A stretch of 64,000 nt of DNA, from the NCBI RefSeq assembly GCF_005144885.1, contig NZ_CP039690.1:3733001-3797000 (forward strand), written 5' to 3'. Below are positions 3,925-64,000 of the stretch, piece by piece. Every line of letters begins with the position of its first letter. Positions within the stretch are counted from its first letter, which is position 1. The notes under the pieces were generated by a model. It saw nothing but the letters and a program-made list of their open reading frames with translations. It had not been told where the DNA came from and made no database searches. A program made the position numbers and the translations under genes. The DNA is from Phreatobacter stygius (lineage in GTDB: Bacteria; Pseudomonadota; Alphaproteobacteria; Rhizobiales; Phreatobacteraceae).

Positions 3925-3966
3925 GGATCGTCTGCCCGATCGTCGTGGTCGAGGCTCACGCGCCTC

Positions 3967-3994
3967 ACTTGTCGGCATTAACTCGACAAGTTAA
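3967..3994. promoter_or_regulatory. overlapping dyads, candidate GntR operator
   Basis: Two overlapping inverted repeats lie in the gap between the GntR gene and the ATPase gene: ACTTGTCG (3967-3974) with CGACAAGT (3984-3991), and TTAACT (3978-3983) with AGTTAA (3989-3994). Both are perfect. The position just upstream of the transporter genes and the CTTGT/ACAAG half-sites make it a reasonable operator for the neighbouring UTRA-type GntR regulator. Binding is inferred, not shown. Confidence 0.5.
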
Positions 3995-4031
3995 CGGGCG
4001 TGTGACGATCGGGCTTTGCGGCGATGAAGGC

Positions 4032-6980: not shown

Positions 6981-7029
6981 TGATGATGGCATGCCTTGGA
7001 AGGGATCGTTCTGACCGGCGAGGCGGCTG

Positions 7030-8895: not shown

Positions 8896-8896
<1 letters not shown>
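7955..8896 (+). CDS. ABC transporter permease, DppC/OppC family
   Basis: Inner-membrane permease of 313 residues. After a hydrophilic N-terminal tail the first helix is LAVVSGGILFLMVLAIVFGP, followed by the HPFGTDDLGQDLLARMIYGG motif that defines DppC/OppC proteins. The coupling loop EFVEAARALGASKWRQVVRH and the terminal NFIGDGLRDTLDPRKVM are also typical. The ATG at 7955 lies inside the end of the DppB gene; no better start exists downstream before the first helix. Its stop overlaps the ATG of the next ATPase (TGATG). Confidence 0.95.
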
Positions 8897-9908
<1,012 letters not shown>

Positions 9909-9912
<4 letters not shown>

Positions 9913-10883: not shown

Positions 10884-10999
10884 GCCCGTCCGAGCGGGCT
10901 GGAAAACGCATAGCTCAAGAGCGCCGGCGGGCATGGTCAGATGGTACCGGCATTGCTGTGTGATGCGCCGTCACACTTGATCTCTCACCTGGGCTCATC

Positions 11000-12556
11000 A
11001 TGCTGAAATTACGATCGGTCTTCGCCTTGTCGCTGGCGCTCGCAGCCCCATTTGCGGCGCCGCCCGCGCAGGCCGCCGGCACGCTCGTCGCGGTGCTGGA
11101 AGCGGAGATCACCACGCTCGATCCGCATTTCAACGCCGCCTATATCTCGCGCACCTTCAGCTACATGGTGTTCGACACCCTGTTCGCGATGGATTCGAAG
11201 GGCGAGATCAAGCCGCAGATGGTGCAGGACTGGCAGGTCTCGGACGACCGCATGACCTATACCTTCACCTTGCGCGACGGCCTGAAATGGCATGACGGCC
11301 AGCCGGTGACGGCAGCCGACTGCGTCGCCTCGCTGCGCCGCTGGGGTGCCCGCAATGCGCTCGGCCGCCGGCTGATGGCGGCGACCGCGTCGATCGAGGC
11401 GCGCGACGCCAAGACCTTCGTGCTCAAGCTGAAGGAGCCGTTCGGCCTGGTCATCCACGCGCTTGGCCACCCGGTCAGCCCCGGCGCCTTCATGATGCCG
11501 GAACGCCTTGCCAACACGCCGGGCGAACAGCGGATCCCGGAGGTCATCGGTTCCGGCCCGTTCGTCTATGCGAAGGCCGACCACCGCTCCGGCGACCGGA
11601 TGACCCTGCGCCGCAACGCCGCCTATGTGCCGCGCGACGAGCCGGCCGATTTCCTGGCCGGCGGCAAGCGGGTCAATATCGACGCGCTGGAGATCCGCGT
11701 CATCCCCGATGGTGCGACCGCCGCCTCGGCCCTGCAGGCCGGCGAAATCGACTTCATGCAATATGCCCCCTTCGATCTCCTGCCCATGCTGGAGAAGAAC
11801 AGCCGGATCAGGGTCCTGGGCTTTTCCGGGCCGCATATGTTCGCCGGCGCCTATCGCCTCAACGCCACGCAAAAGCCGTTCGATGATCCGGCGATCCGCC
11901 GGGTCCTGTGGCAACTGGTCGACCAGCGCGAGGTGCTCGACGGCCTTGGCCTGTCGGCGCGCTACGCCAGGACCTGCGCGAGCTTCTTCATGTGCGGCGG
12001 CACCTATGAGAGCACCGCCGGCATCGCGGCGGCGTCCGCGCCGTCGATCGAGGCGGCCCGCAAGGCGCTGAGCCAGACCCGTTACGCCGGTGAACCGGTG
12101 GTCGTGCTGCAGGCGAGCGACCTGGAAGCGCCGCGCGTCTCGGCCGAGGTGCTGGCCGACAAGCTCCGGCGCGTCGGCTTCAATGTCGACCTGCAGGTGA
12201 TGGACTGGGCTTCGGTCCTGGCGCGCCGCGCCAAGCGCGAGGGCTGGAGCGTCTATGGCGTCCATGCCGGCGGTTTCGATCTCGCGTCACCCTTGACCAA
12301 TGTCATGGTCGCCTTCAACTGCGCCGACTATACCGGCTGGCAGTGCGACGCCCGCATCACGCCGCTCCTGGAAGCCTTCACGCGCGCGCCCGACGATGCC
12401 GCGCGCAAGCCGCTCGCCGATCAGATCCAGGCCATCATGTACGAACAGGCGCCGGGCATTCCCTGGGGCCAGTTCGCCCAGCCGGCCGCCCATCGCGCCA
12501 ATCTGCGCAATCTGATTCCGTCGGCCATTCCGGTATTCTGGAACGTCGAGAAGTAA
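11000..12556 (+). CDS. second family 5 ABC substrate-binding protein
   Basis: Periplasmic binding protein of 518 residues with a Sec signal (LRSVFALSLALAAPFAAPP, cleavage after AQA). Family 5 features include TTLDPHFNAAYISRTFSYMV, DGLKWHDGQPVTAADCVASL and GSGPFVYAKADHRSG. It is not a copy of the binding protein at 5190; it is much closer to the two at 28199-31421, sharing KRWG/RRWG sequence, the ALQAGEID motif and two cysteine pairs (CASFFMC and NCADYTGWQC). It probably gives the upstream permease/ATPase complex a second ligand range, or once belonged to another system. The next gene starts 12 bases later, so co-transcription is likely. Confidence 0.93.
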   Translation: MLKLRSVFALSLALAAPFAAPPAQAAGTLVAVLEAEITTLDPHFNAAYISRTFSYMVFDTLFAMDSKGEIKPQMVQDWQVSDDRMTYTFTLRDGLKWHDGQPVTAADCVASLRRWGARNALGRRLMAATASIEARDAKTFVLKLKEPFGLVIHALGHPVSPGAFMMPERLANTPGEQRIPEVIGSGPFVYAKADHRSGDRMTLRRNAAYVPRDEPADFLAGGKRVNIDALEIRVIPDGATAASALQAGEIDFMQYAPFDLLPMLEKNSRIRVLGFSGPHMFAGAYRLNATQKPFDDPAIRRVLWQLVDQREVLDGLGLSARYARTCASFFMCGGTYESTAGIAAASAPSIEAARKALSQTRYAGEPVVVLQASDLEAPRVSAEVLADKLRRVGFNVDLQVMDWASVLARRAKREGWSVYGVHAGGFDLASPLTNVMVAFNCADYTGWQCDARITPLLEAFTRAPDDAARKPLADQIQAIMYEQAPGIPWGQFAQPAAHRANLRNLIPSAIPVFWNVEK

Positions 12557-49810: not shown

Positions 49811-52800
49811 CTAGTGGCTCGGGTTCGGCTCGGTCTGCCGGCTGGCGGGCGCGGCATGGTCGCCGGGCGTCGGCTGGTCGGCCGGCGTGCTATCCGTAGT
49901 CTTGTCCCGGCCGCCGAACAGCTGCGACACCACGACGAAGAAGATCGGCACGAAGAACACCGCGAGCACGGTGGCCGTGATCATGCCGCCGAGCACGCCG
50001 GTACCGATCGCCTGCTGACTGCCGGCGCTGGCGCCGCTGGCGATCGCCAGCGGCAAGACGCCGAGCGCGAAGGCGAGCGAGGTCATGATGATCGGCCGGA
50101 AGCGCAGGTGCGTCGCTTCGACCGTCGCTTCCAGCAGGCCCTTGCCTTGGGCTCTCAGGTCCTTGGCGAACTCGATGATCAGGATCGCGTTCTTGGCCGA
50201 AAGTCCGATGATCGCGATCAGGCCGACCTTGAAATAGACGTCGTTCGGCATGTCGCGCAGCGTCACCGCCAGCACCGAGCCGATGACGCCGAGCGGCACC
50301 ACCAGCATGACCGAGATCGGGATCGACCAGCTCTCATAGAGAGCTGCCAGGCAGAGGAAGACCAGGATGCAGGACAGCGCGATCAAGAGCGGCGCCAGCG
50401 AACCCGACTGGATTTCCTGCAGCGACTGGCCGGTCCACTCATAGCCGAAACCGAGCGGCAGTTCGCCGGCGAGCTTCTGCATCTCGGCAATGGCGTCACC
50501 CGACGAATAGCCGGGCGCGGCCTGACCGCTGATGCGCACCGCCGGATAGCCATTATAGCCGATGATCTGCGACGACCCGCGCTGCCACTCGATGCGTGCG
50601 AAGGCCGACAGCGGCACCATGCCGCCATTGGTGTTGCGCACGTTGAGCGTCAACAGGTCGGCGGTCTGCATGCGGCTGGTTGCTTCGGCCTGCACCAGGA
50701 CGCGCTGCTGCCGGCCGCCATTGGGGAAGTCGTTGACATAGGCCGAGCCGAGATTGGTGGTCAGCGTGGCGTTGATGTCGGCGAAGGTGACGCCGAACGT
50801 ATTGGCCTTTTCGCGGTCGATGACCAGGTTGACCTGGGCAGCGTCGGGCAAGCCTTCGACGAACAGCTGGCTGAGGATCGGGCTCTTCTGCGCGGCACCC
50901 AGCAACTGGTCGCGCGCTTCGGCCAACTGCTGCTGGTTCTGGCCGGCGCGGGCCTGCAGCCGGAACGCGAAGCCGTTGGAATTGCCAAGGCCCTGGATCG
51001 GCGGCGGCGACAGGCCGAAGACGATCGCGTCGCGCACCTGCGACAGCGCGATGCTGCCGCGCATGGCGATCTGAGCGGCGCTGTCTTTCGGGCCGCGTTC
51101 GCTCCAGTCCTTCAAGGTGACGAAGGCGAGCGCGGCGTTCTGGCCGGTGCCGAAGAAGCTGAAGCCCGAGATCGCGATGATGCGGGCCACCCCCGGCTCG
51201 GCCAGGAAATGCTTCTCCGCCGCCTCGATGGCGCTCAGCGTGCGGTTGGCGGTGGCATCCGAGGGCGCCTGGAAGTTGACAATCACATAACCCTGGTCTT
51301 CGTCAGGCAGGAAGGCGGTCGGCAGCCGGACGAACAGGTAGCCGAGCCCGGCGAGCAGGGCGGCATAGATGATCATATAGCGCCCGGCGCGCCGGATCAG
51401 CTTGCCGACGAAACCGCTATAAGCATGCGAGGTCCGGTTGAACGAGCGGTTGAACCAGCCGAAAAAGCCGCGCTTCTCATGATGTTCGGCCGGGATCGGC
51501 TTCAGGAACGAGGCGCAGAGCGCCGGCGTCAGGCTCAGCGCCAGCAGGGCCGAGAACAGGATCGACACCACCATGGTGATGCTGAACTGCTTGTAGATGA
51601 CGCCGACCGCGCCCGGGAAGAAGGCCATGGGAATGAACACCGCCACCAGCACCAGCGTGATGCCGATGATGGCGCCGGTGATCTGGCCCATCGCCTTCTT
51701 GGTCGCTTCCTTCGGCGACAGGCCTTCCTCGGCCATGATGCGCTCGACATTCTCGACCACGACGATCGCGTCGTCGACCAGGATGCCGATCGCCAGCACC
51801 ATGCCGAACATGGTCAGCACGTTGATCGAGAAGCCGAAGGCCAGCATGGCGGCGCAGGTGCCGAGCAGGGCCACCGGAACCACCAGGGCCGGGATCAGCG
51901 TGTAGCGGATGTTCTGCAGGAACAGGAACATCACCAGGAAGACCAGAAGCATGGCTTCCGCCAGTGTCTCCACGACCTTCTGGATCGAGGCCCTGACGAA
52001 GGGCGAGGTGTCGTAGGGCACCGAGAATTCGACGCCCGGCGGGAAATAGACGGCGAGCTCCTTCAGCCGCGCGGTCACCGCTTCCGACGTCGCCATGGCA
52101 TTGCCGGTCGGCGACAGCTGGACGCCGATCGCCGCGCTCGGCTTGCCGTTGAGGCGCGACGAGAAACTGTAGGACAGGCCGCCGACCTCGACGCGCGCGA
52201 CATCGCGCAGCCGCACCGCCGAACCATCGGGATTGGCGCGCATGACGATCGCGCCGAACTCCTCGGGCGAGGTCAGCTGGCCCTTGACCAGCACGGTCGC
52301 GGAGATCTGCTGGGTGATCGGGTTGGGCAGCGCGCCGATGCTGCCGGCGGCAACCTGGGCGTTCTGCGCGGTGATCGCCGCGACCACGTCGGTGGCGGTC
52401 ATGTTGAGGCCGACCAGCCGGTCCGGGTCGATCCAGATGCGCATCGAGCGCTCGGTCGCAAACAGCTGCGCCTTGCCGACGCCGGGAATGCGGCGAACCT
52501 CGCCGATGATGTTGCGCATCATGTAGTCGCCGAGCCCGATATCGTCGACCGAGCCGTCGGACGAGGTCAGCGAGACCACCATCAGGAAGCTCGAGCTCGC
52601 CTGCTCGACCTGGACGCCCTGCTGGGCGACCGACCGGGGCAGGCGCGGCTCGACGCGGCGGACACGGTTCTGCACGTCGACCGCCGCCTGGGCCGGATTG
52701 GTGCCCGGCTGGAAGGTGGCGGTGATTTCGACCGAGCCCGAGGTGTCCGAGGTCGATTCGAAATAGAGCAGGCCGACAATGCCGTTCAGCTCTTCTTCGA

Positions 52801-52993
52801 TCGGCCGGGTCACCGCCTGATAGACGTTCTCAGGCGAGGCGCCGGGATAGCTGGCGGTGATCGAGATCTGCGGCGGCGCGACGGTCGGATATTGCGCGAT
52901 CGGCAGCAGCGGCACGGCGATCGCGCCGGCCAGCATGATGAAAAGCGCGACGACCCACGCAAAGATCGGGCGTTCGATGAAAAATTGAGGCAT
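49811..52993 (-). CDS. RND multidrug efflux pump, HAE-1 family (AcrB/MexB-like)
   Basis: Inner-membrane proton-driven pump of 1060 residues, the usual length. It starts MPQFFIERPIFAWVVALFIM, the hallmark of AcrB/MexB, followed by IAQYPTVAPPQISITASYPG. The proton-relay aspartates are in AIGILVDDAIVVVENVERIM around residue 405, and the second half repeats the fold with SIPISVMLVVPLGVIGSVLA and IGLSAKNAILIIEFAKDLRA. The adaptor gene precedes it by 12 bases. No outer-membrane channel gene is present, so it must use a TolC-type protein encoded elsewhere. A very long frame on the opposite strand is only a codon-bias shadow. Confidence 0.97.
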   Translation of the reverse strand: MPQFFIERPIFAWVVALFIMLAGAIAVPLLPIAQYPTVAPPQISITASYPGASPENVYQAVTRPIEEELNGIVGLLYFESTSDTSGSVEITATFQPGTNPAQAAVDVQNRVRRVEPRLPRSVAQQGVQVEQASSSFLMVVSLTSSDGSVDDIGLGDYMMRNIIGEVRRIPGVGKAQLFATERSMRIWIDPDRLVGLNMTATDVVAAITAQNAQVAAGSIGALPNPITQQISATVLVKGQLTSPEEFGAIVMRANPDGSAVRLRDVARVEVGGLSYSFSSRLNGKPSAAIGVQLSPTGNAMATSEAVTARLKELAVYFPPGVEFSVPYDTSPFVRASIQKVVETLAEAMLLVFLVMFLFLQNIRYTLIPALVVPVALLGTCAAMLAFGFSINVLTMFGMVLAIGILVDDAIVVVENVERIMAEEGLSPKEATKKAMGQITGAIIGITLVLVAVFIPMAFFPGAVGVIYKQFSITMVVSILFSALLALSLTPALCASFLKPIPAEHHEKRGFFGWFNRSFNRTSHAYSGFVGKLIRRAGRYMIIYAALLAGLGYLFVRLPTAFLPDEDQGYVIVNFQAPSDATANRTLSAIEAAEKHFLAEPGVARIIAISGFSFFGTGQNAALAFVTLKDWSERGPKDSAAQIAMRGSIALSQVRDAIVFGLSPPPIQGLGNSNGFAFRLQARAGQNQQQLAEARDQLLGAAQKSPILSQLFVEGLPDAAQVNLVIDREKANTFGVTFADINATLTTNLGSAYVNDFPNGGRQQRVLVQAEATSRMQTADLLTLNVRNTNGGMVPLSAFARIEWQRGSSQIIGYNGYPAVRISGQAAPGYSSGDAIAEMQKLAGELPLGFGYEWTGQSLQEIQSGSLAPLLIALSCILVFLCLAALYESWSIPISVMLVVPLGVIGSVLAVTLRDMPNDVYFKVGLIAIIGLSAKNAILIIEFAKDLRAQGKGLLEATVEATHLRFRPIIMTSLAFALGVLPLAIASGASAGSQQAIGTGVLGGMITATVLAVFFVPIFFVVVSQLFGGRDKTTDSTPADQPTPGDHAAPASRQTEPNPSH

Positions 52994-53005
52994 GGCGTGC
53001 CGACC

Positions 53006-54193
53006 TTACTGAACGGTGGTGTTGCTGGCCGCGGCGGTCGTCTGAGCCGGCGGCACCCAGGCCGTTGCATTGACCTTGGCGCCCGGGCGCAGCCGCTGGA
53101 AGCCGTCGACCACCACCCGTTCGCCGGCCTTCAGGCCCTCGTTGATGACGGCGCGGCCGTTGACCACCCGGTTGGAGGTCACCGTCCTGAGCTCGGTCGT
53201 GTCGTCCGGCTTGACGACATAGACCTGGGGCCGGCCGGCATTGTCGCGCTGCACCGCCTGCTGCGGCACGGCAATGGCGTTGCGCTCGACGCCCTGCTCG
53301 ATCCGCACGCGGACATATAGGCCCGGCAAGAGGTCGCCATTGGGGTTGGGGAACTCGCCGCGCAGCGTCACCTGGCCGGTGGTCGTGTCGACGGTTGCCT
53401 CGGAGAACAGCAGGCGGCCGGGATGCGGATAGACGCTGCCGTCGTCGAGCACCAGGCGCACCCGCGCCTCGTCCTGCCCGGTCGCTTCCAGCGCGCCGGC
53501 CTGCAGCGCGCGGCGCAGGCGCACCAGGTCGGTCGCCGACTGGGTGAAGTCGGCATAAACCGGGTCGAGCTGCTGGATGATGGTCATCGGCTCGGCGCCG
53601 TTGGCGGCGACCAGCGCGCCCTCGGTCACCAGGGCCCGGCCGGTGCGGCCGCGGATCGGCGCGGTGATATTGGTATATTGCAGGTTGAGCTGGGCCGCGG
53701 CGAGGCCGGCCTTGCCGCTGGCGACGTCGGCATCGGCCTGGGCGAGCGATGCGACCGCGCTCTCATGTTGCTGCGGGCTCGCGACATTGCGCGCGCGCAG
53801 CTGCTCATAACGTTCGGCCTGCTGCTGGGCCTGGATGCGGGTCGCCTCGGCGCGCTGCAGCGTTGCCTGGGCACGCTCCACCTCGACGCGGAACGGCGCC
53901 GGATCGATCCGGTACAGCACGTCGCCTTCGTTCACCGCCGTGCCCTGCTGGAACACCCGCTCGACCACGATGCCGGAGACCCTGGGCCTCACCTGCGCGA
54001 TGCGTGTCGGCGCAATACGGCCGGGCAGCTCGTTGGTGATCGCGATATCCTCGGGCGTCGCGGTGAACACCGCCACCGGGGCCGGCGGCATGCCGGGGCC
54101 GCCTTGGGCCTGCTGACCGTCCTTGCACCCCACCAGCACCAGGCTGAACGAGAGGGCGATCGGCAGCATGAGTCGCGAGGGTTGGAAGCGCAT
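53006..54193 (-). CDS. RND efflux periplasmic adaptor lipoprotein (AcrA/MexA-like)
   Basis: Periplasmic membrane-fusion protein of 395 residues. The signal peptide ends in a lipobox, LVLVGC, with Cys23 as lipidation site. The lipoyl/beta-barrel parts are visible as AQVRPRVSGIVVERVFQQGT and NLQYTNITAPIRGRTGRALV with a coiled-coil of Ala/Gln-rich repeats between them (QAQQQAERYEQLRARNVASP). The end LKAGERVVVDGFQRLRPGAK is typical of MexA. The ATG at 54193 was chosen as the start of the lipoprotein signal; the frame is open upstream into the promoter region. It bridges the pump to an outer-membrane channel. Confidence 0.95.
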   Translation of the reverse strand: MRFQPSRLMLPIALSFSLVLVGCKDGQQAQGGPGMPPAPVAVFTATPEDIAITNELPGRIAPTRIAQVRPRVSGIVVERVFQQGTAVNEGDVLYRIDPAPFRVEVERAQATLQRAEATRIQAQQQAERYEQLRARNVASPQQHESAVASLAQADADVASGKAGLAAAQLNLQYTNITAPIRGRTGRALVTEGALVAANGAEPMTIIQQLDPVYADFTQSATDLVRLRRALQAGALEATGQDEARVRLVLDDGSVYPHPGRLLFSEATVDTTTGQVTLRGEFPNPNGDLLPGLYVRVRIEQGVERNAIAVPQQAVQRDNAGRPQVYVVKPDDTTELRTVTSNRVVNGRAVINEGLKAGERVVVDGFQRLRPGAKVNATAWVPPAQTTAAASNTTVQ

Positions 54194-54320
54194 GGTGGAT
54201 CCAGGAAATGGCGCGGGCGCGCGGTTTGACGGGCAAAAGACGAAAAAGCCGCACGTTGAACGGGCGGCTTGAAAAGACTGGGGTCGTCCTGCGCCGGCCC
54301 AATTGACCGATACAAAACGT

Positions 54321-54344
54321 GATATACAGACACGTATGTATGTA
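54321..54344. promoter_or_regulatory. AcrR-like operator upstream of the RND operon
   Basis: This 24-base pseudo-palindrome lies 127 bases upstream of the adaptor gene. Read on the minus strand it begins TACATACAT and ends TGTATATC, closely resembling the E. coli AcrR box as I remember it. The AT-rich surroundings (54303-54352) stand out from the GC-rich context and probably also contain the promoter. The TetR-family gene at the end of the operon is the likely binder. Confidence 0.65.
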
Positions 54345-54486
54345 TATTGCGGTGCAATAGTCAAGCGCGCACGCCGCCGCTCGTCATCACGGGTCGCTGA
54401 ACGGATCGCGTTGGGTTTCTGCCGTGTTGGGAGAAGCGTCGGATTGTCGCGGGCCCGAACTTGCCGGGCCATTGCCCGCTTCAATA

Positions 54487-55088: not shown

Positions 55089-55769
55089 TCAGACGATCTC
55101 GGACACCACCTTGGCGATCAGCGCGTTCGACAGGATCACCGGCAGCCCGCTGGCTTGCGCGACGACCTGGCGGTGCTGCTCGAGGAAACCCATGCAGTCC
55201 ATCAGCAGGATGTCGGCGCCGCGGGCTGCGAGATCGCGCGCCGCAGCTTCAAGCTCGGCCTGGCCCTCGGCATAAGGCGAAGCGGCGGCATAGATCGGCT
55301 GGCGGGCGAGCGCCGCCCATTTCGACGCCTCGCTGTCGATCTGCTCGATCAACGGCACGATGATGCCGACCTGGGCGTCCTGGACCGCGGCCGCCACTGT
55401 CGGGGGCAGGATCCGGTCCGGCTCGACCAGCCGCGCCCGCGCGCAATGCAGCGTCTCGAAAGTGCCGGTGCACAACATCACGACCGTCGTGCAGCCTTCG
55501 GCCTCCAAGGCGGCGAGCTTGTCGCGGGCGGCGGTCTCGGTCGCCTGCTTGTCGATGATCACGGAACTGCCGTCGCGCAGCCGGGTGATCAGCACCGGCT
55601 TGCCTGGCCGCGGCGCGAACTGCTCGGCGACCTCGCCGGCGGTCAGGCCGTCGAGCACGCCGGCATGAATGCGCGGCAAGGCGTTGTCGACATGGGCGTC
55701 GAGGATCGGCGTGATGTCGGCGCGCGGCGCCTGGCCGATGGTGAGCGTCCCGAGTTTGCGGATGGTCAT
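55089..55769 (-). CDS. AroM family protein
   Basis: Cytoplasmic protein of 226 residues. The start IRKLGTLTIGQAPRADITPI is diagnostic of AroM. Two cysteines lie in conserved glycine-containing loops, Cys100 in VVMLCTGTF and Cys192 in LLMDCMGF, about 92 residues apart. This spacing and setting recall the two catalytic cysteines of the Asp/Glu/hydantoin racemase superfamily. The family has no firmly established reaction that I know; the name comes from a gene near aroL. It is the last gene of the IclR-hydantoinase-OPT-DUF1177 operon, 9 bases after DUF1177. A racemase role in this operon is inference. Confidence 0.93.
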   Translation of the reverse strand: MTIRKLGTLTIGQAPRADITPILDAHVDNALPRIHAGVLDGLTAGEVAEQFAPRPGKPVLITRLRDGSSVIIDKQATETAARDKLAALEAEGCTTVVMLCTGTFETLHCARARLVEPDRILPPTVAAAVQDAQVGIIVPLIEQIDSEASKWAALARQPIYAAASPYAEGQAELEAAARDLAARGADILLMDCMGFLEQHRQVVAQASGLPVILSNALIAKVVSEIV

Positions 55770-55778
55770 GGGGCGATC

Positions 55779-56711
55779 CTAGTCCTGTCGCTTCTGCAGA
55801 TGGGCGAGCGAGCCGTAGAGCGCGATCAGGCGCTGATATTCGGCGGGGTCGTGGAACTGGCAGGTGCCACGGGTGAATTCCTTGGCGACCTCGACCGCGA
55901 ATTTCACTGCAAGCGCGATATCGACCTCGTGGCTGGCGCCGGTGCCGCAGCCGGGCACGACGCTTTCGGCTGCGATGGCTACGCCGACCACCGGGGCCGA
56001 GGTCGCGATCGACGGCTGCAGGATGCTGTTGAGGTGATAGACGCCATTGCCGTAGGGCGTGATGTCCTGGGTGGTGATCGGGAAGGTCACCGCCGGTCGG
56101 CCGGTGGTCATTTCCATGATGCGCACCAGATCCTCGGCCACCCGCAGGATATAGCCCTGCTTGACCGTCGGCGAGATGGCGATGCCCTTGTGATTGAGGA
56201 TCCGGTTGCCCTTGGTGGTGTCGATCGACAGCACCGCCTCCATTTCGGGCAGCACCTCCTCGGCATTCATGTCCTCGGTCTCGACCGGCGAATCCATGAA
56301 GTCGACCGGCTGGTGCGGCCGGGTCGGGGCATCCGGGCAGACATGGGTGGTGACGATCACGTCGCCGGGCAGCGCGTCGCCCTTGGTCTGCATGTCCGCG
56401 AGCTTCAGCGCGGTCGCCACCGCCGCGATCGCGCCGTCGCCGTCGGAGACCAGGCCGATCCGGCTCGGCCGCGCGCCGATGCCGCCGAGGCGGCCGACCA
56501 CGCCGAGCGTCGGGGTCGCGCCGCCGCCGGTCCGGCCGGTCAGGCCAGGCAGGACGATCTTGACGAAATCGGTCTTGCCTTTCGGCCCAGAGATTTCCCG
56601 GACGCTGACTTTGGCGTCCGGGAAGCGGGCGAACAGATCGACCACGGTCTGGCCCGAGGCATAGGCGCTGTCGAAAGCGTCGAACACCTGGAGGGTTTGC
56701 GAGAGGCTCAT
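55779..56711 (-). CDS. DUF1177 family protein
   Basis: Protein of 310 residues with no signal peptide. It starts MSLSQTLQVFDAFDSAYASG and fits DUF1177, a family of unknown function that I recall next to AroM genes. Charged, conserved-looking blocks are IGLVSDGDGAIAAVATALKL, DVIVTTHVCPDAPTRPHQPV, EAVLSIDTTKGNRILNHKG and GCGTGASHEVDIALAVKFAV. Their order and the acidic/histidine residues are reminiscent of dinuclear metallopeptidases of the M20/M28/M42 type, but I cannot confirm homology by eye. It lies 40 bases after the OPT transporter gene and 9 before AroM. Confidence 0.9.
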   Translation of the reverse strand: MSLSQTLQVFDAFDSAYASGQTVVDLFARFPDAKVSVREISGPKGKTDFVKIVLPGLTGRTGGGATPTLGVVGRLGGIGARPSRIGLVSDGDGAIAAVATALKLADMQTKGDALPGDVIVTTHVCPDAPTRPHQPVDFMDSPVETEDMNAEEVLPEMEAVLSIDTTKGNRILNHKGIAISPTVKQGYILRVAEDLVRIMEMTTGRPAVTFPITTQDITPYGNGVYHLNSILQPSIATSAPVVGVAIAAESVVPGCGTGASHEVDIALAVKFAVEVAKEFTRGTCQFHDPAEYQRLIALYGSLAHLQKRQD

Positions 56712-56751
56712 CGTCTGTTCCTTGGCGGTTGGCGGCGCCGGGCCCGAGGGC

Positions 56752-58380
56752 TCAGCGCCTGAGGTTCTTGATCACCGAGTCGAAGAAGTTGAACAGCGCG
56801 TCGCCGGCGATGATGCCGGCGGCGAACACTTCCATGTCGCCATCGCTGTCCTTGCCGCGCAGCCGCTCCCAGATGAGCCGCGCGGCGATGCCGACCAGCA
56901 CCGCCCAGCCGGCCGCCGGGAAGTTGATCAACAGGCCGGTGGCGAACAACACGCCGATCTGGCGCTTCGGCCCGCCGACGAATTGCAGGATCGCGCCGGG
57001 GATCGCCCAGATGAACAAGGACCAGGCGACGCCCGGCGCCACTCCGGCGCGGATGGTGGCGGCATAGACCCGGTCGACCGGCGGGATCAGGTTCTGGGCG
57101 AAATAGGTCTGGTAGCTGAACAACACGACGATGCCGGCGACCACGAAGGCGAGCATGGCGGCGAACAGCTGCTGGCGGCGGCCATCCCGTTCGAAGGCCG
57201 GGTCGGCGCCATTGCCGCGCAACAGATAACCGGCCTTCAGGTCATAACCCATGTCGGCAAAGGCGGGTCCGGTGGCCGCCGAGAAGCCGACCAGCAGCGC
57301 CAAGGCCGGCAGCGGGAAACCGATGAGCATGCCGATGATCAAGGTGATCAGGGCCACGGCGAAAGCCGGGAACCAGCCGGAATGCATGGCGGCGAGGCCG
57401 ACGATCAGCTCGTGAACATAGGCCGCGAAAGCGGCATAGAGCACGAACAGGATCAGCATGCCGATCGACATGTCGCTGGCGAGCCCGCCGGCGATCGCCA
57501 GGAACACCGCGATGGCGAGATAGCCTGCCGTGCCGAGGCCGAGCGCGCGCCTGACTTCGGCATCGGGCCGGCCAGCGGTCTCAGCCGCCGTGGCGCTGTC
57601 GCGCGCCATCAAGATCTGGCCGACCTGGATCAGCGCGACGATGCCGGCGCCGATCATGAAGCCGTGCGGGATATAGGCAGCCATCAGGTCGCCGCGCGGG
57701 ATCAGCGACGCGAACAGGGTGTTGTTGAACAGGTCGCCGGAATAGCCGCGCAGCAAGAGGCCGACGCCGAACATCGACAGCGCCCAGATATTGCCGATGA
57801 AGGCGACGCCGAAGGCCGACATCGGGATCCGGAAAAAGGCGCCGATCAGGCCGAAGCCCACGCCGATGCCCATCAGCACGGCCTTGCGCCCGCCCTCATC
57901 GCCGGCCTTGATCGCCTCGGCCGCGGCAACGCCCGGCGGCCAGGCGCCGGTCGCCGGAAACACCCGGCTGTCGAACATCCGGTAGAGCAGATAGGCGTCG
58001 AGCAGCATGGCCAGGAAGACGCCGGCAAACATCGGCAGGATCAGGTCCGGCCGGCCGAGCAGGAACGGCACGCCGATCGGCAGGAGCAGGCTGTTCGCCG
58101 CGCCGAAGGTTGCTGACGAAATGGCGCTCTGCGCCAGGTTCTGCACATGGATCGAGCGATAGCGCATGAACAGGCCCACCGGCACGCGGGCCAGCGCCAT
58201 GGCGGCCATGGCGCCGATCAGCGAGGTGTTGGCGGTGACGCCGAGCGACACCAGCAATTGCATGCCGATGATCGCTCCGAAGATCGACAGGATGCCGATC
58301 AGCACGAAAGTGGCCGGGTCGAACAGGCTCGGATGGCGCCGGGATGCCCCCTCGGGCGCCGGCTGGTTGATATCGCTCAT
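56752..58380 (-). CDS. OPT family transporter
   Basis: Integral membrane protein of 542 residues with perhaps 13 to 15 helices, consistent with the oligopeptide transporter (OPT/YSL) family. Helical segments include TFVLIGILSIFGAIIGMQLL, LIPHGFMIGAGIVALIQVGQ-like sequence (AAYIPHGFMIGAGIVALIQ) and FPAFAVALITLIIGMLIGFP. The motif NIWALSMFGVGLLLRGYS is also in character. The length is somewhat below the 600-700 residues common in OPT proteins. The ATG at 58380 (MSDINQPAPEGASRR) was chosen; an open frame upstream overlaps the hydantoinase gene. It is the only transporter of this operon and probably imports the substrate of the enzyme encoded before it. Confidence 0.88.
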   Translation of the reverse strand: MSDINQPAPEGASRRHPSLFDPATFVLIGILSIFGAIIGMQLLVSLGVTANTSLIGAMAAMALARVPVGLFMRYRSIHVQNLAQSAISSATFGAANSLLLPIGVPFLLGRPDLILPMFAGVFLAMLLDAYLLYRMFDSRVFPATGAWPPGVAAAEAIKAGDEGGRKAVLMGIGVGFGLIGAFFRIPMSAFGVAFIGNIWALSMFGVGLLLRGYSGDLFNNTLFASLIPRGDLMAAYIPHGFMIGAGIVALIQVGQILMARDSATAAETAGRPDAEVRRALGLGTAGYLAIAVFLAIAGGLASDMSIGMLILFVLYAAFAAYVHELIVGLAAMHSGWFPAFAVALITLIIGMLIGFPLPALALLVGFSAATGPAFADMGYDLKAGYLLRGNGADPAFERDGRRQQLFAAMLAFVVAGIVVLFSYQTYFAQNLIPPVDRVYAATIRAGVAPGVAWSLFIWAIPGAILQFVGGPKRQIGVLFATGLLINFPAAGWAVLVGIAARLIWERLRGKDSDGDMEVFAAGIIAGDALFNFFDSVIKNLRR

Positions 58381-58445
58381 GTGGAAGGTCCCCTCGTTTT
58401 TTGGCCGTGATGGGCCGATCGCCGTCGCCCGCGACCGGCCGGTCG

Positions 58446-61400
58446 TCATGCAACCAGAATGCCGGACTTCTCCGCGGCGACCGCGCGCCGCGGTTCCGCG
58501 CCATGCAAGCCGTAATCGCGCTTGGCGGCGTCCGGTGTGACCAGCCCGAACGCGACGTCGGCGGCGACCGCCTCGCGCGGGCGCTCGGCCGGATCGCCAT
58601 AGCCGGCGCCGCCGGCCAGCACGACCTCGACCACCTCGTGGGGCTTGTCGATCTGAACCAGTTCGCCGGTGCCGCAATCCTTGATCAGGTGGCCGGTGTC
58701 ATCAAGCACGCGGCCGGACGCGCCGCCGCCCGCCTTGCCGCCGAACAGGCCGGGGATCGGATTGTTGACCCCTTCCGGATAGACCGAGACCAGCGTCGGC
58801 AGGCCGTCATCGGTCAGCTTGCGCAGCCTGACCTGCTGGCCGAGGCCGCCGCGATGCCGGCCGGCGCCGCCGGAATCGGCGATATAGGTCTTCTCGATCA
58901 CCAGCACCGGCACGCGCGCCTCGAAGGTCTCGATCGAGGTATTGGCCGCCGAGGTCGGATAGAGCAGGCCCGACTTGCCGTCGCCATGGGCCGAGCCGCC
59001 CTGGCCGCCACCCATGAACAGCATGTCCGAATAGGTGTCGCCGGCGCGGTCGCGGCCATAGACATTGGCCGCCACCGGCAGGCCGGTGAAAGCCTGGACC
59101 TGGGTCGGCGCCGCCTTGGACAGCGCCCGGAAGATGTTGGGTGCGATATACCAGCCGGTGCGGGTCCGCAGGTTCACCGCCATCGGCTTGTCGCAGTTGA
59201 GGATCGAACCCTCCGGCGCCTTCACCGTGAAGGCGCGGTAGCAGCCGGCATTGCCGCGCACATTCGGCGTCAGCATGCATTTCAACGGGTAGGTCGCGTG
59301 CGCCGTGGTGTAGTTCAGCGTGCAGTTGAGCCCGCCTTGCGGCAATTGCGCGGGAGCGCCGGCGAAGTCGAGCTCGATGGTCTCGCCCTTCACCGTCAGC
59401 GCCAGCGGATAGGTCATCGGCGTGCCCAGGGGATTGTTGGTGACCGTGCCGTGATAGATGCCGTCGGGCAGCGCCGCGATCGCCTCGCGCATGGCCTTTT
59501 CCGAGCGGTTCTGGACGACGGAAGCCAGCGCCCGCAGGTCCTGCATGCCGTAATCGGCCATGAAGGATGCCAGCCGCTCGGCGCCGATGGCGTTGGCGGC
59601 GACGAAGGAATGCAGGTCGCCCAGCACCTGTTCGGAATTGCGGACATTCTCGCCGAGCAGCCGCAGCAAGGTCTCGTTCGGCTTGCCCGCCTCGTAGAGC
59701 TTCATCGGCGGGATCTGGAAACCTTCCTCATAGATCTCGCGCGCCCGCATGCTGTCCTTGGTGCCGCCGATGTCGGAGACATGGCCGACCGTGCCCATCA
59801 GGCCGACCACCCGGTCGCCCATGAACACCGGCGTCACCACGGCGATGTCGAACAGGTGGCCGGCGCAGAGCCAGGGATCATTGGTGATCAGCACGTCGCC
59901 GGGCTTCAGCGTCTCGGCGGGATAACGCGCGAGCAGCGCCTTCACCGCGCGCGGCAGGGTCAGGTTGAACACCGGCATGGCGCGCGGGCTGTGCGCCAGC
60001 GTCTCGCCTTCTGGATCGAGCAGTTCGCAGGCGAAATCCTGCGCTTCCGAGATCACCAGCGAGAAGGCGGTGCGGCAGACGGTCAGCCACATTTCCTCGA
60101 CGACATTGACGAGGCGGCTCCACATGATCTCCAGCGCGATCGGATCGGCCTCGATCCGGCGGGCGGCTTCCGCCACCGGCATGTCGGCTGATATCACCGT
60201 CTCGACCGCGTCGGCCTGGCCGATGGCGATGATCAGGTCGAGCACCTCATCGACCGTGACGTGGTCGCCGGGCGGCACGATGGTGGTGGCTTCCCGCTCC
60301 TCGATAATGGCCGGGCCGGCCAGCCTGTCGCCCGGGCGCAGGGCATAGCGGTCATAGACGGTGGCATCCTGCCAGCCGCCGTCGAACCAGGCGCGGCGCG
60401 TGCCTTTGATCTTGGCGCCGGCATCGCCGCCGCCGGTTGCCCCTGATAGCGACAGCGTCGCGGCGGGACCGGCGCAGCGGACGCGGAAATTGATCGCCTC
60501 CAGGCGCGCGCCCTCATAGACCGAGGTGTAGCGCGACGAATAGACCGTGGTGAAGGCTTGGCGGATGGCGCCGAGGCTCGCCGCGCTGATGGCGCCGCCC
60601 GGCAGCGGCACGGCAATGTCGTGCATCTGGCCGACCAGGCGCATGTCGGCGCCGCGCTCCACCGTGATGTCGTCGGGTTTGACGCCGGCCTCGACCAGAT
60701 GGCGGCGGCCTTCGGCCTCGAGCTCGGTCAGGAGCGCGTTGACACCGGCCGCATCGAAGCCCTCGGAAAATTCCACCGGCAGCGAACGGACCATGTCGAA
60801 GGACAGCGGCGCGACCAGGAAGCCGAGCGCGGAAGCCGCGCCCGAGGCTGGCGGAATGATCACTTCCTTGACGCCGAGCACGCGCGCCACGTCGGCGGCA
60901 TGGGCCGGGCCGGCGCCGCCGAAACCGACCATGGCGTAGCGGCGGGGATCCTTGCCCTTCTCGACCAGGTGGACGCGGGCGGCGGCCGCCATGCTCTCGA
61001 CCACCACCTTGTGGATGCCCCAGGCGGCCTCCTCGACCGTCAGGTCGAGCGGGGCGGCAACCGTTGCGATGGCGTCGGCGGCGGCCTTGGCGTCGAGCGC
61101 CATGCGCCCGCCGAGGAAGAAGCCGGGATCATAATAGCCGAGCACCAGGTTGGCGTCGGTTACGGTTGGCCTCGTGCCGCCCATGCCGTAGCAGGCCGGG
61201 CCCGGATCGGAGCCGGCCGAATGCGGGCCGACCTTCAACAGGCCGACCTCGTCGATCGCCGCGATCGAGCCGCCGCCGGCGCCAATCTCGATCATGTCGA
61301 TGACCGGCGCCTTGATCGGCAGGCCGGACCCCTTGGCGAAGCGGTTGACCCGGCCGGCCTCGATCATCTGGGCGATCTCGGCGCGGCCGTTCTCGATCAT

Positions 61401-62294
61401 GCAGGCCTTGGCCGTCGTGCCGCCCATGTCGAAAGAAATGACGTCCTTGTGGCCGGCAAGCTCGCCGAACAGGGCGGTGGCCAGGCCGCCACCGGCCGGC
61501 CCGCTCTCCAGCAAGCGGATCGGCAAGGTGCGGGCGGTCTCGGGCGACACCAGCCCGCCGGCCGAATGCATCAGGCGGAGCGCGCCGGTGAACGAACGGG
61601 CTTCGAGCTCACGCTGCAGGCGCGCCAGGTAGCTGTGCATCAAGGGCTGGACATAGGCGTTGGCGCAGGTGGTGACGAAGCGCTGATATTCCCAGATCTC
61701 GGCAACCACTTCGCTCGACAGCGACACGGTCAGCTGAGGCAAGGCCTCGCGCACGATCCGGCCGGCCGCCTGTTCGTGCTGCGGGTTGCGATAGCTGTTG
61801 AGGAAGCAAATGGCGATCGCCTGGCAGCCGGCGGCGGCGAGCCGTTCGGCCTGGGCGCGCACCGCCTTCTCGTCCAGGGCGGTGACGACGGCGCCGTCAC
61901 GATCGATCCGCTCGGCGACCTCCAGCCTGAGGTCGCGCGTCACGAAGGGCTCGGGGAAGGCCAGGAACAGGTCATAGATGTCGTAGCGCTGCTCGGTGCC
62001 CATCTCCAGGATGTCGCGGAAGCCGCGCGTGGTGATCAGGCCGAGCTTGGCGCCCTTGCGCTCGATCACCGCATTGGTCACCAGCGTCGTGCCGTGGACG
62101 ATCTCGGATACCTCGCCAAGCGTGATGCCGGCCATGGCGACCAGTTCCTCGAGCCCGATCAGGGCTGCCTCGGACGGATCGTGCGGCGTGGTCAGGCGCT
62201 TGTGCAGGCGGACCGATTTCTCGACGCCGTCATAGAGGATGAAATCGGTGAAGGTTCCGCCGATGTCGAAGCCGATGCGCCAACGCTGGGTCAT
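58446..62294 (-). CDS. fused hydantoinase A/B protein, 5-oxoprolinase-like
   Basis: Cytoplasmic ATP-dependent hydrolase of 1282 residues. Residues 1-690 are HyuA/OxoprolinaseA: RIGFDIGGTFTDFILYDG with the ATP-binding DIGGT, a second FDMGGTTAKACMIENG near 290, and the EIGAGGGSIAAIDEVG loop. Residues 717-1270 are HyuB: DPIALEIMWSRLVNVVEEMW, GDVLITNDPWLCAGHLFDIA and the C-terminal DSGGAGRHRGGLGQQVRLRK. This full fusion is the architecture and length of eukaryotic-type 5-oxoprolinase, whereas many bacteria have two separate genes. The reaction would be ATP-driven opening of 5-oxo-L-proline, a hydantoin or a related lactam. The start overlaps the IclR stop by 4 bases; OPT, DUF1177 and AroM follow. 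Confidence 0.95.
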   Translation of the reverse strand: MTQRWRIGFDIGGTFTDFILYDGVEKSVRLHKRLTTPHDPSEAALIGLEELVAMAGITLGEVSEIVHGTTLVTNAVIERKGAKLGLITTRGFRDILEMGTEQRYDIYDLFLAFPEPFVTRDLRLEVAERIDRDGAVVTALDEKAVRAQAERLAAAGCQAIAICFLNSYRNPQHEQAAGRIVREALPQLTVSLSSEVVAEIWEYQRFVTTCANAYVQPLMHSYLARLQRELEARSFTGALRLMHSAGGLVSPETARTLPIRLLESGPAGGGLATALFGELAGHKDVISFDMGGTTAKACMIENGRAEIAQMIEAGRVNRFAKGSGLPIKAPVIDMIEIGAGGGSIAAIDEVGLLKVGPHSAGSDPGPACYGMGGTRPTVTDANLVLGYYDPGFFLGGRMALDAKAAADAIATVAAPLDLTVEEAAWGIHKVVVESMAAAARVHLVEKGKDPRRYAMVGFGGAGPAHAADVARVLGVKEVIIPPASGAASALGFLVAPLSFDMVRSLPVEFSEGFDAAGVNALLTELEAEGRRHLVEAGVKPDDITVERGADMRLVGQMHDIAVPLPGGAISAASLGAIRQAFTTVYSSRYTSVYEGARLEAINFRVRCAGPAATLSLSGATGGGDAGAKIKGTRRAWFDGGWQDATVYDRYALRPGDRLAGPAIIEEREATTIVPPGDHVTVDEVLDLIIAIGQADAVETVISADMPVAEAARRIEADPIALEIMWSRLVNVVEEMWLTVCRTAFSLVISEAQDFACELLDPEGETLAHSPRAMPVFNLTLPRAVKALLARYPAETLKPGDVLITNDPWLCAGHLFDIAVVTPVFMGDRVVGLMGTVGHVSDIGGTKDSMRAREIYEEGFQIPPMKLYEAGKPNETLLRLLGENVRNSEQVLGDLHSFVAANAIGAERLASFMADYGMQDLRALASVVQNRSEKAMREAIAALPDGIYHGTVTNNPLGTPMTYPLALTVKGETIELDFAGAPAQLPQGGLNCTLNYTTAHATYPLKCMLTPNVRGNAGCYRAFTVKAPEGSILNCDKPMAVNLRTRTGWYIAPNIFRALSKAAPTQVQAFTGLPVAANVYGRDRAGDTYSDMLFMGGGQGGSAHGDGKSGLLYPTSAANTSIETFEARVPVLVIEKTYIADSGGAGRHRGGLGQQVRLRKLTDDGLPTLVSVYPEGVNNPIPGLFGGKAGGGASGRVLDDTGHLIKDCGTGELVQIDKPHEVVEVVLAGGAGYGDPAERPREAVAADVAFGLVTPDAAKRDYGLHGAEPRRAVAAEKSGILVA

Positions 62295-63076
62295 AAGCTC
62301 TTCTCCTCAATAGGAAATCTCACGGGAATAAAACGCTTGTCGCCGATCACGGCGGCGATCTCGGCGGCCCCTTCGCCGAGCGCCGCGATGATCCGGGTCC
62401 GCTCATGCGGCGTGACGGTGGATGCGGGATAAGAAATGCACAGCGCGGCCTCGTCGCCGGTGACGGGATCGCCGACGGCGACCGAGATGGCGCCGACCCC
62501 GCGCACCGCCTCGTCATGGGATTCGGCAAAGCCCGCCCGGCGGATCGCGGCAAGCCGCGTGATCAGGTCGTCGAGCGTCTGCGGCGCGGTGGCAGACGGC
62601 GGCACGAAACCCTGGGCGTAGAGCTTGCGCACCTCGTCATCGGGCAGCCGGGCGAGCAGGGCGCGGCCGGTGCTGCTGGCAAAGGCCGAGATCCGGTCGC
62701 CGATGGTCGAGACCACGCGCAGGATGTTGCGGCCGGGGTGCACGGTGATGCCGACCACCTCGCCGCCGCGCCGCATGCTGATATAGCCGGTATGGCCGAT
62801 CTCGGCCGCGACCCGCGCCACGATCGCGTCGGTCCGGTCGATCAGCGAGGTCGCGAAGCGATAGATGTGGCCGGTCTGGTGCAGCAGCAGGCCGGGCCGG
62901 TAGCGTTTGGTTTCGCCCACGGTTTCCAGAAATCCGGCATCGCGCATTGCGCGCAGCAGGCGCGACACATTGCTCTTCGGCAGGCCGAGCACCGACGACA
63001 CTTCGGTCACCGTCAGCTCGTTGCGGGTGACGGAGAAACAACGGAGCACATCGGCCGCGCTGGAAAGGATGGACAT
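62291..63076 (-). CDS. IclR family transcriptional regulator
   Basis: DNA-binding regulator of 261 residues from the ATG at 63076 (MSILSSAADVLRCF). The winged helix (residues 5-65, ELTVTEVSSVLGLPKSNVSR) is followed by the IclR effector domain (VVSTIGDRISAFASSTGRAL, RRAGFAESHDEAVRGVGAIS and ALCISYPASTVTPHERTRII). In-frame ATGs at 63094 and 63103 would lengthen it, but the 63103 codon lies inside a palindrome at 63097-63113 and lacks a ribosome site, while AAAGG precedes 63076. It is co-directional with and overlaps the hydantoinase gene by 4 bases, so it most likely regulates the whole operon and itself. Confidence 0.93.
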   Translation of the reverse strand: MSILSSAADVLRCFSVTRNELTVTEVSSVLGLPKSNVSRLLRAMRDAGFLETVGETKRYRPGLLLHQTGHIYRFATSLIDRTDAIVARVAAEIGHTGYISMRRGGEVVGITVHPGRNILRVVSTIGDRISAFASSTGRALLARLPDDEVRKLYAQGFVPPSATAPQTLDDLITRLAAIRRAGFAESHDEAVRGVGAISVAVGDPVTGDEAALCISYPASTVTPHERTRIIAALGEGAAEIAAVIGDKRFIPVRFPIEEKSL

Positions 63077-63096
63077 GCGGGCCACGCCTTTCATTT

Positions 63097-63113
63097 GTTC
63101 CATAAAATGGAAC
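63097..63113. promoter_or_regulatory. IclR-type operator palindrome
   Basis: GTTCCAT (63097-63103) and ATGGAAC (63107-63113) form a perfect 7-bp inverted repeat with a 3-base spacer. TTCC/GGAA half-sites of this layout are typical of IclR-family operators. It sits immediately upstream of the likely IclR start and just downstream of a candidate promoter, ideal for autorepression of the operon. Confidence 0.7.
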
Positions 63114-63302: not shown

Positions 63303-64000
63303 TCAGCCGATCCTGAGCCGCTCGGCTTCCATCGCGGCCGTGGCCCGCTCGACCATTTCATTGCCGGTCAGGCCTGGCGGTATCGCCGGCAGATAGGACA
63401 CGACAATGGTGCCGGGGCGCCGGGCGCCGCCGGAAATGCCCCAGAAACGGCCCGAATTCACCACCACCGGCAGCACCGGCACGTCGAGCCTTGCATAGAT
63501 CATCTCGACGCCGCGCTTGAAGTCGATCGGTTCGTCCGGGCTCTTGCGCGTGCCTTCCGGAAAGACCAGAACCGGCCGGCCCTCGGCCAGCGCCGTCTTC
63601 GCGCCGTCGATCATCCTGCGCAGCGCCTGGGTGCCGAGCTCCCGGTCGATGGTGATCATCGGCTGGTTTCTCAGATACCAGCCGAACACCGGCACCTTGA
63701 GCAATTCCTTCTTGGCGACCACGGCGACATCGGGAAACAGCACGTTGGCGGCCAGCGTCTCCCAGGTCGACTGGTGGTTGCTCAAGACGATGCAGGGGCC
63801 GGCTGGCCGGTTTTCCAGGCCACGCTCGACATAATCGAGCCCGACGACATGTTTCAGAAGGAACAGCGCGCCGCGCACCCAGCGCCGCGACACCGAGCGG
63901 ACCATGCGCGGCGAGCCGACCAGCATGAGCACCGGAATGAAAGCGCCGAACAGCGCGGTCCACAGGCCGAACAGGATGTCGAACGTCTTCGAGCGAATGG
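63303..64000 (-). CDS. lysophospholipid acyltransferase family protein (PlsC-like), N-terminus cut by window end
   Basis: Membrane-associated acyltransferase that transfers an acyl chain to lysophosphatidic acid in phospholipid synthesis. The frame is open to base 64000 and reads IRSKTFDILFGLWTALFGAF before the region with the catalytic motif NHQSTWETL (His and acidic residue four apart). The second motif FPEGTRKSPDEP and the MITIDRELGTQALRRMIDGA segment fit PlsC. About 231 residues are present and only a few N-terminal residues are probably missing. It is unrelated to the IclR operon, from which it is separated by about 200 bases. Confidence 0.93.
   Translation of the reverse strand, partial: IRSKTFDILFGLWTALFGAFIPVLMLVGSPRMVRSVSRRWVRGALFLLKHVVGLDYVERGLENRPAGPCIVLSNHQSTWETLAANVLFPDVAVVAKKELLKVPVFGWYLRNQPMITIDRELGTQALRRMIDGAKTALAEGRPVLVFPEGTRKSPDEPIDFKRGVEMIYARLDVPVLPVVVNSGRFWGISGGARRPGTIVVSYLPAIPPGLTGNEMVERATAAMEAERLRIG

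Follow-up and report, generated by a model that had tools for sequence, protein, structure and literature searches.

The locus lies in a 64,000-nucleotide window of Phreatobacter stygius DNA, where five genes are read in one direction from the minus strand. At the front is an IclR-family regulator (62291..63103; PF09339/PF01614), which overlaps by 4 nt the gene for a fused HyuA-HyuB hydrolase of the ATP-dependent hydantoinase/oxoprolinase type (HyuAB; 58446..62294, 1282 aa), recognised from Pfam domains and motifs. After a gap of 65 nt comes an OPT/YSL-family transporter (56752..58380, 542 aa), then, 40 nt further on, a DUF1177 protein (55779..56711, 310 aa; PF06675, 444.8 bits) with a predicted M17/M28-like alpha/beta fold and, 9 nt beyond that, AroM (55089..55769, 226 aa; PF07302, 244.2 bits), for which an Asp/Glu/hydantoin racemase fold is predicted. 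The transporter scores 75.7 bits against a curated PF03169 cut-off of 25.8; its mechanically called reading frame, which runs to 58677, is too long, and the ATG at 58380 is the likely start. The layout described in the original prediction, a five-gene operon with overlaps or short gaps behind a perfect palindrome, is present in full.

The palindrome (63097..63113, no strand assigned) has 7-bp arms and a 3-bp spacer, GTTCCAT-TTT-ATGGAAC, and this is the sole place in the genome that matches it with at most one mismatch. When the window was shuffled, 18 of 100 shuffles contained at least one match at two or fewer mismatches (mean 0.19); the real site is free of mismatches. The first in-frame ATG of the IclR gene (63103) falls inside the palindrome, so that the true start may instead be the ATG at 63094 or 63076. 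The palindrome recurs at locus L001, which says little because L001 is a close relative (its IclR is 97% identical). We consider the palindrome a candidate operator for IclR.

We surveyed the genes lying on the same strand within 9.5 kb of DUF1177 at 86 loci. These are top matches and not a random sample (80 of them, from genomes, ranked highest among at least 419), 18 of the 86 occupy one shared place next to aroL, and Pfam was used to check the family labels on example proteins. Among these best-matching loci, 84 have a peptide-type importer nearby, either OPT (68) or a Dpp-type ABC system (16), and in 64 of the 68 OPT loci the transporter is no more than 1.5 kb upstream of DUF1177. AroM is found at 80 of the 86, within 600 bp downstream in 76 of those 80; DUF1177 occurs without it at six of these loci, in two of five genomes of a class sample and in four of 24 genomes of a family sample. 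The loci are spread over Proteobacteria, Bacillota, Acidobacteria and one haloarchaeon, and this recurrence of the arrangement across phyla rules out a chance grouping of genes. The recurrent core is an importer, DUF1177 and AroM.

HyuAB does not belong to this core. Clear HyuA and HyuB genes, over threshold and on the same strand, are present at only three of the 86 best-matching loci, and the fused form adjoins DUF1177 only at L001, whose DUF1177 is 95% identical to ours. Weaker HyuA-like genes occur at L065 and L077, and HyuA-like genes on the opposite strand at L077 and L085. Thus, of the co-occurrence proposed originally, the importer, DUF1177 and AroM hold together far beyond close relatives, but HyuAB does not.

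Other genes accompany the core more variably. In the same set of best matches, peptidase genes are found at 60 loci and absent from 26, with S51 PepE near 21 and an M29-like peptidase near 34; a PF01177-type racemase is near 37, a PucR-type regulator near 29 and DUF917 (S-Me-THD) near 24, and CDOA and CDOB are found together at the same six loci. On a Planococcus plasmid, genes for DUF917, a hydantoinase and a cytosine permease lie near DUF1177 on the opposite strand, and at L094 a xanthine-dehydrogenase-type enzyme adjoins DUF1177.

The fused HyuAB carries PF05378, PF01968, PF19278 and PF02538 in a single open reading frame. Searching for the family ATP motifs (DxGGTxTD, DxGGT and GxxPGP) located intact versions in the A part, DIGGTFTDF at 10, DMGGT at 289 and GSDPGP at 361, and the B part holds an Asp-His-Asp-His metal site (D753, H813, D816 and H838) placed by motif and not by structure. 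Both the ATP motifs and the metal tetrad are common to the caprolactamase CapAB (6YRA), and the metal spacing of 60/3/25 compares with 58/3/25 in CapB (positions from PMC8453981). The best solved relative is 7hk5 (608 bits), a fused protein named N-methylhydantoinase whose chain aligns with HyuAB end to end; it is narrowly ahead of the two 6yra chains combined (390 + 183 bits), of which chain A is named 5-oxoprolinase. HyuAB falls below both NCBIfam caprolactamase equivalog cut-offs (it scores 547.7 and 226.9 bits where either model demands 1000) and, unlike CapAB and 7HK5, it is linked to OPT, DUF1177 and AroM. Its two nearest fused relatives in an order sample, L133 (69% identical) and L134 (55%), adjoin peptide ABC importers, with SBP5 and permease genes at both and OppD and OppF also at L134. 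Of the ten relatives whose neighbourhoods were examined, eight, each of them 40-44% identical, have no clear Dpp/Opp importer adjacent, and one of the eight, L138, has weak ABC matches.

In Foldseek the AroM model (pLDDT 94) matches two racemases best, 2eq5 for hydantoin and 5lg5 for allantoin, with probability 1.00, TM (query) of 0.55-0.59 and rmsd of about 5. Cys100 and Cys192 are invariant in 25 of 25 aligned AroMs. By sequence, nothing credible was found in the PDB. AroM thus shares a predicted fold and two invariant cysteines with the PF01177 racemases (hydantoin, allantoin, Asp and Glu) but forms its own Pfam family, about 15% identical to solved PF01177 members; a PF01177 protein at L079 matches the AroM model weakly, below cut-off. 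AroM is therefore predicted to be a racemase-type enzyme, in line with the racemisation step first proposed for it, and PMC11055893 describes its activity as untested.

For DUF1177 the fold match is moderate. Its model matches M17/M28 structures with E 8.5e-9 and probability 1.00, at a TM of about 0.5 and an rmsd of about 7 Å; the pLDDT is 81, and the weak loops (82-86, 131-138, 216-226 and 252-258) hold conserved residues. Neither sequence nor profile searches of the PDB gave a significant match to peptidases, 33 members compared with Pfam gave no significant peptidase-family match, and hhalign against 30 M17 and 23 M20-like proteins returned probabilities of 0.05% and 0.18%. In these searches no sequence homology to peptidases was recognised. 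The M17 alignment, although non-significant, pairs D90 with one M17 stretch, presumably the M17 metal site, and is a hint only. The cleavage step that had been assigned to DUF1177 is reduced to a guess from the predicted fold; our literature search found no assigned reaction for the family.

The aroM gene of E. coli provides a view of AroM outside this setting. It occupies the site where relatives carry iclR-opt-DUF1177-aroM, and its product groups with AroMs of the DUF1177-operon type, but the aroL-yaiA-aroM region has no IclR, OPT or DUF1177 and the first catalytic-type cysteine has been lost. In an Enterobacteriaceae-like sample, both cysteines persist at 18 of the 20 loci where AroM adjoins DUF1177 (of the two exceptions, one retains just a fragment of DUF1177 and the other is broken), whereas only five of 79 complete AroMs without an adjacent DUF1177 keep both and 74 lack one or both. 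The catalytic role of AroM would thus depend on the DUF1177 operon, because the cysteine is lost where DUF1177 is gone. Using a home-written Nei-Gojobori count (dS 0.1-1.2), we obtained dN/dS of 0.03-0.20 in 24 of 28 non-overlapping AroM pairs without DUF1177, while the remaining four gave 0.47-0.60; the medians were 0.23 over all 74 such pairs and 0.46 over 22 DUF1177-linked pairs. Most compared pairs without DUF1177 are under purifying selection, and the low values in the 24 pairs disfavour plain decay. This pattern suggests that E. coli aroM descends from an operon of the importer-DUF1177-AroM type whose other genes were lost, and that it has been repurposed.

We suggest that the operon is inducible and serves to take up and break down a cyclic or blocked amide of peptide origin, with a diketopiperazine or hydantoin as the likeliest type, a reading to which we give about an even chance. 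IclR would sense the compound or a metabolite and control the operon through the palindrome. OPT would import the compound, as its family and its exchange for Dpp-type ABC systems suggest, and the importers found near DUF1177 agree with the peptide-like cargo envisaged originally. The intact ATP and metal motifs of HyuAB likewise fit the ATP-dependent ring opening foreseen for it: the actin-like ATP site of HyuA may activate the ring amide and the D-H-D-H site of HyuB may hydrolyse it, the scheme proposed for caprolactamase (PMC8453981). DUF1177, if the modelled exopeptidase-like fold is a guide, could contribute a hydrolytic step on which the role of AroM depends, and AroM, given its fold and cysteines, may invert the alpha-carbon so that both stereoisomers become usable. 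HyuAB may here replace the S51 (PepE), M29-like and M20 (ArgE/DapE) peptidases and DUF917 of other loci.

Describing the system as undescribed, as the original prediction did, was too strong, because similar gene sets are reported near cyclodipeptide oxidases (PMC11055893, Nat Commun 2024). The non-CDPS cyclodipeptide-oxidase clusters of that paper share AroM, DUF917, a hydantoin-type racemase, OPT or dipeptide ABC importers and peptidases with the DUF1177 loci; its main text, by word search, contains neither DUF1177 nor PF06675. The window operon differs from the clusters described there in using a fused HyuAB, and CDOB (PF19585) had zero matches in the window's genome, in a search where no control gave a match either.

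Other substrates would account for parts of this picture. Catabolism of purine-derived hydantoins or allantoin, instead of peptides, would explain the PucR-type regulators and DUF917, the Planococcus and L094 neighbourhoods, and the hydantoin and allantoin racemases as nearest folds to AroM. We consider it rather unlikely in view of the prevalence of peptide-type importers (84/86) and peptidases (60/86), and because Pfam finds no purine-ring breakdown genes in the window operon. Some OPT proteins transport glutathione, and HyuAB has the same domain order as, and a similar length to, the fused eukaryotic 5-oxoprolinase; HyuAB could then be a 5-oxoprolinase salvaging 5-oxoproline from imported pyroglutamyl or glutathione-type peptides. 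This is improbable, since racemases are hard to fit into such a route, the best solved relative is named for N-methylhydantoin, no 5-oxoprolinase-named model is among the NCBIfam matches (the library may hold none) and the caprolactamase models fall below cut-off. In addition, many Pseudomonas genes annotated oplAB encode lactamases for other substrates (PMC8453981). We saw no evidence pointing to 5-oxoproline or pyroglutamyl peptides in preference to hydantoins or diketopiperazines.

The substrate might also be linear, a D-aspartyl, isoaspartyl or otherwise stereo-damaged peptide that PepE or the M29-like enzyme cleaves and AroM and PF01177 proteins racemise, with DUF1177 as an exopeptidase. 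The frequency of these two peptidases, the Asp-X dipeptidase specificity of S51 PepE and the predicted DUF1177 fold are in keeping with this, but such a pathway has no need for an ATP-driven HyuAB, DUF917 or a cyclodipeptide oxidase, each of which lies near DUF1177 in some loci, and we think it unlikely to be correct. Uptake of metal chelates with tailoring enzymes has a precedent in the OPT/YSL proteins that carry metal-nicotianamine; the substitution of a Dpp-type ABC importer for OPT at 16 of the 86 loci makes it very improbable.

Returning to the peptide-derived amide, we tentatively put forward a joint reading, at somewhat less than even chance, in which DUF1177 would be a new family of metal-dependent hydrolases with an M17/M28-like fold and an unusual ligand set, carrying out the central cleavage of the ring or blocked peptide, and AroM would racemise the substrate or product. 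The pair would then form a peptide-ring salvage system extending from Proteobacteria to Haloarchaea; where it is broken, AroM would tend to lose a catalytic cysteine yet be kept, so that E. coli AroM would be a one-time racemase exapted to another use and would not belong to the aromatic pathway. The highly conserved DUF1177 thereby gains a testable setting, between a peptide importer and a racemase-type partner, and E. coli aroM, an orphan next to aroL, a proposed history as a leftover retained for another use.

The operon comprises five co-directional genes on the minus strand: IclR (62291-63103), a fused HyuA-HyuB protein of 1282 aa (HyuAB; 58446-62294), an OPT transporter (56752-58380), DUF1177 (55779-56711) and AroM (55089-55769). 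The gaps between them, from IclR to AroM, are -4, 65, 40 and 9 nt, in agreement with the original prediction of five genes running in one direction with overlaps or short gaps. The palindrome GTTCCAT-TTT-ATGGAAC (63097-63113) overlaps the first possible IclR start codon, and a genome search finds it to be the single site with at most one mismatch across 7.35 Mb. The upstream neighbour is an acyltransferase by profile match (63303-63932); the downstream neighbour bears a weak likeness to DUF6264, under cut-off. On the downstream side, one small gene separates the operon from minus-strand genes for an AcrB-type RND efflux pump and an HlyD-like adaptor (49811-54484).

We considered what recurs around DUF1177 at 86 loci, made up of 80 genome loci (the best 80 of at least 419 confirmed DUF1177 relatives) and six of seven plasmid matches, counting neighbours on the same strand, within 9.5 kb and above fixed bit thresholds, with family labels confirmed by Pfam for one to three examples per family. 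In this best-match set a peptide-type importer is found at 84 of the 86 loci (the exceptions are L003 and L004), as OPT at 68 and as a Dpp/Opp-type ABC importer without OPT at 16. AroM accompanies DUF1177 at 80 loci, no more than 600 bp downstream in 76 of them, and within the same limits is absent from L012, L023, L028, L030, L034 and L085. Peptidases occur at 60 loci (S51 PepE at 21, M20 ArgE/DapE at 12 and M29-like at 34, the M29 Pfam match being partial and weak, at 40-45 bits against a cut-off of 27), IclR at 44, PF01177-type racemases at 37, PucR at 29 and DUF917 at 24; both cyclodipeptide-oxidase subunits are present in the same six. HyuA and HyuB are found together at three: L001, where they are fused and DUF1177 is 95% identical to that of the window, and L032 and L085, where they are separate genes. 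L065 and L077 have weaker HyuA-like genes on the DUF1177 strand, and L077 and L085 have further ones on the other strand. In this set the proposed co-occurrence of DUF1177, AroM, OPT and HyuAB extends to AroM and OPT and does not extend to HyuAB.

A Pfam-confirmed Tar-type chemoreceptor gene lies near OPT-DUF1177 in L028 (12914-14578), with members of the same sequence cluster in L030 (1952-3598), L034 (2096-3736) and L052 (2816-4798); AroM is absent from three of these four loci.

Genomes with DUF1177 and no AroM, in two samples, count against reading the two as a pair. In a sample of 385 genomes from the window's class, 5 carry DUF1177 and 15 carry AroM; three of the five DUF1177 genomes also hold AroM, always on the same contig and about 2.5 kb or less away. 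The other two (L094 and L095) have an S51-type gene close by, which in L094 is on the opposite strand; DUF1177 is flanked there by luciferase-like monooxygenase and xanthine-dehydrogenase-type molybdenum-enzyme genes (3671-12334, by Pfam). Among 246 genomes of the family of genome G706, taken as Enterobacteriaceae by gene content, 97 hold AroM and 24 hold DUF1177, 20 of the latter together with AroM. Genome G1006 carries the two on separate contigs, i.e. they are not always adjacent.

Motif comparison finds the ATP motifs and D-H-D-H metal site of HyuAB intact, the latter by the residue numbers of the caprolactamase subunit CapB as given in PMC8453981. The best solved relative is 7hk5, a fused protein named N-methylhydantoinase (608 bits), with the caprolactamase chains together narrowly behind (390 and 183 bits). 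Seven Hydantoinase_B (HyuB-type) genes are present in the genome, the window copy ranking sixth by score, and HyuAB is therefore one among several copies. A scan of 199 genomes from the order, scoring three candidates per genome with an E of at most 1e-200, gives two relatives beyond the window's own that are full-length and exceed 50% identity, L133 (69%) and L134 (55%). Because both adjoin peptide ABC importer genes, the near relatives of HyuAB are linked to peptide uptake by either importer type; the family at large is not, and none of eight further-off relatives (40-44%) whose surroundings were inspected has a clear peptide ABC importer alongside. The importer type beside the near relatives mirrors the OPT/ABC swap of the DUF1177 loci.

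Thirty-four DUF1177 relatives, one of them haloarchaeal, share 52-81% identity with the DUF1177 of the window, and their alignment gives D90, E152, D164, D216 and H226 as invariant candidate residues. A model from 33 sequences (pLDDT 81, pTM 0.87; low-confidence loops at 82-86, 131-138, 216-226 and 252-258) has as its top 50 structure matches 49 Plasmodium M17 aminopeptidase entries, including a few titled only 'protease' that we take to be M17, and the S. griseus aminopeptidase 1qq9, presumably of M28 (E 8.5e-9, TM about 0.5). None of the sequence-profile comparisons backs the aminopeptidase match. The model makes a hydrolase-like fold likely, and DUF1177 may be a peptidase.

The AroM model (pLDDT 94) finds its matches among racemases of hydantoin, allantoin and aspartate, and all 25 aligned sequences have Cys100 (CTG) and Cys192 (DCMG). 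An identical view of the fold appears in the main text of PMC11055893, where AroM, DUF917 and hydantoin racemase genes are described as enriched in non-CDPS cyclodipeptide-oxidase clusters; these also carry OPT and ABC importers and peptidases, and resemble the DUF1177 loci in AroM, DUF917, importers and peptidases. A text search of that main text finds no DUF1177. The analysis establishes the gene content, its conservation, the motifs, the modelled folds, the synteny and the loss of cysteines; the operon would act by import, ring opening, racemisation and hydrolysis, and would be under IclR control. As substrate type, diketopiperazines are slightly favoured over hydantoins, since both the importers and the peptidases belong to peptide families and six loci hold cyclodipeptide oxidases. 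The abstract of PMC3852281 reports bacteria that break down diketopiperazines, among them Paenibacillus chibensis with cyclo(Asp-Phe); it names strains and no genes.

At 18 of the 86 loci (among L010-L066), every one named Enterobacterales, AroL lies near DUF1177 in the order (proC-yaiI-)aroL-yaiA-iclR-opt-DUF1177-aroM-ppnP-rdgC-mak, with single genes in some undetected or beyond the contig end (AroM is absent from L023, and yaiA undetected in L023 and L031). E. coli K-12 has the identical order minus iclR-opt-DUF1177, with aroM at 4429-5106 of its locus, L109. A tree of 95 AroMs places E. coli AroM in a clade (support 100/99) with 18 AroMs of the aroL place, 17 from the aroL-DUF1177 loci and one from L035, whose contig begins too late for AroL; the E. 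coli branch is long (1.22) and the placement of such long rows unsure. E. coli AroM has MST in place of the others' first cysteine motif. E. coli aroM, its first catalytic-type cysteine lost, appears to be what remains of an aroL-adjacent iclR-opt-DUF1177-aroM operon.

In the G706 family we inspected 100 AroM loci (among L150-L259), covering all 97 AroM genomes. Where DUF1177 sequence adjoins, both cysteines are kept at 18 of 20 loci, the exceptions being the broken L258 and L206, which has a Gly and in which only a 56-residue DUF1177 tail between iclR and aroM (3813-3980) marks a transitional state in loss of the operon. Where it does not, both are kept in 5 of 79 complete AroMs (L190, L200, L238, L244 and L253) and one or both are missing in 74 (the first in 73, the second in 17), a count that may include a few misaligned divergent rows and from which the partial AroM of L259 is excluded. 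L190, L200 and L206, in which IclR remains between aroL and aroM, are intermediate states. In the aroL/ppnP place alone, both cysteines are kept in 7 of 8 AroMs with DUF1177 versus 5 of 79 without. On the tree, linkage must have changed 3 times and the first-cysteine state 5 times (at least 3 and at least 4 on well-supported branches), so the 74 AroMs that lost cysteines are far from independent. Among AroM pairs without DUF1177, dN/dS is 0.03-0.20 in 24 of 28 non-overlapping pairs and 0.47-0.60 in the other four; in most comparisons these AroMs are still constrained by purifying selection. We suggest that AroM catalysis is tied to the DUF1177 operon, and that the E. coli-type AroM was retained for a different purpose.
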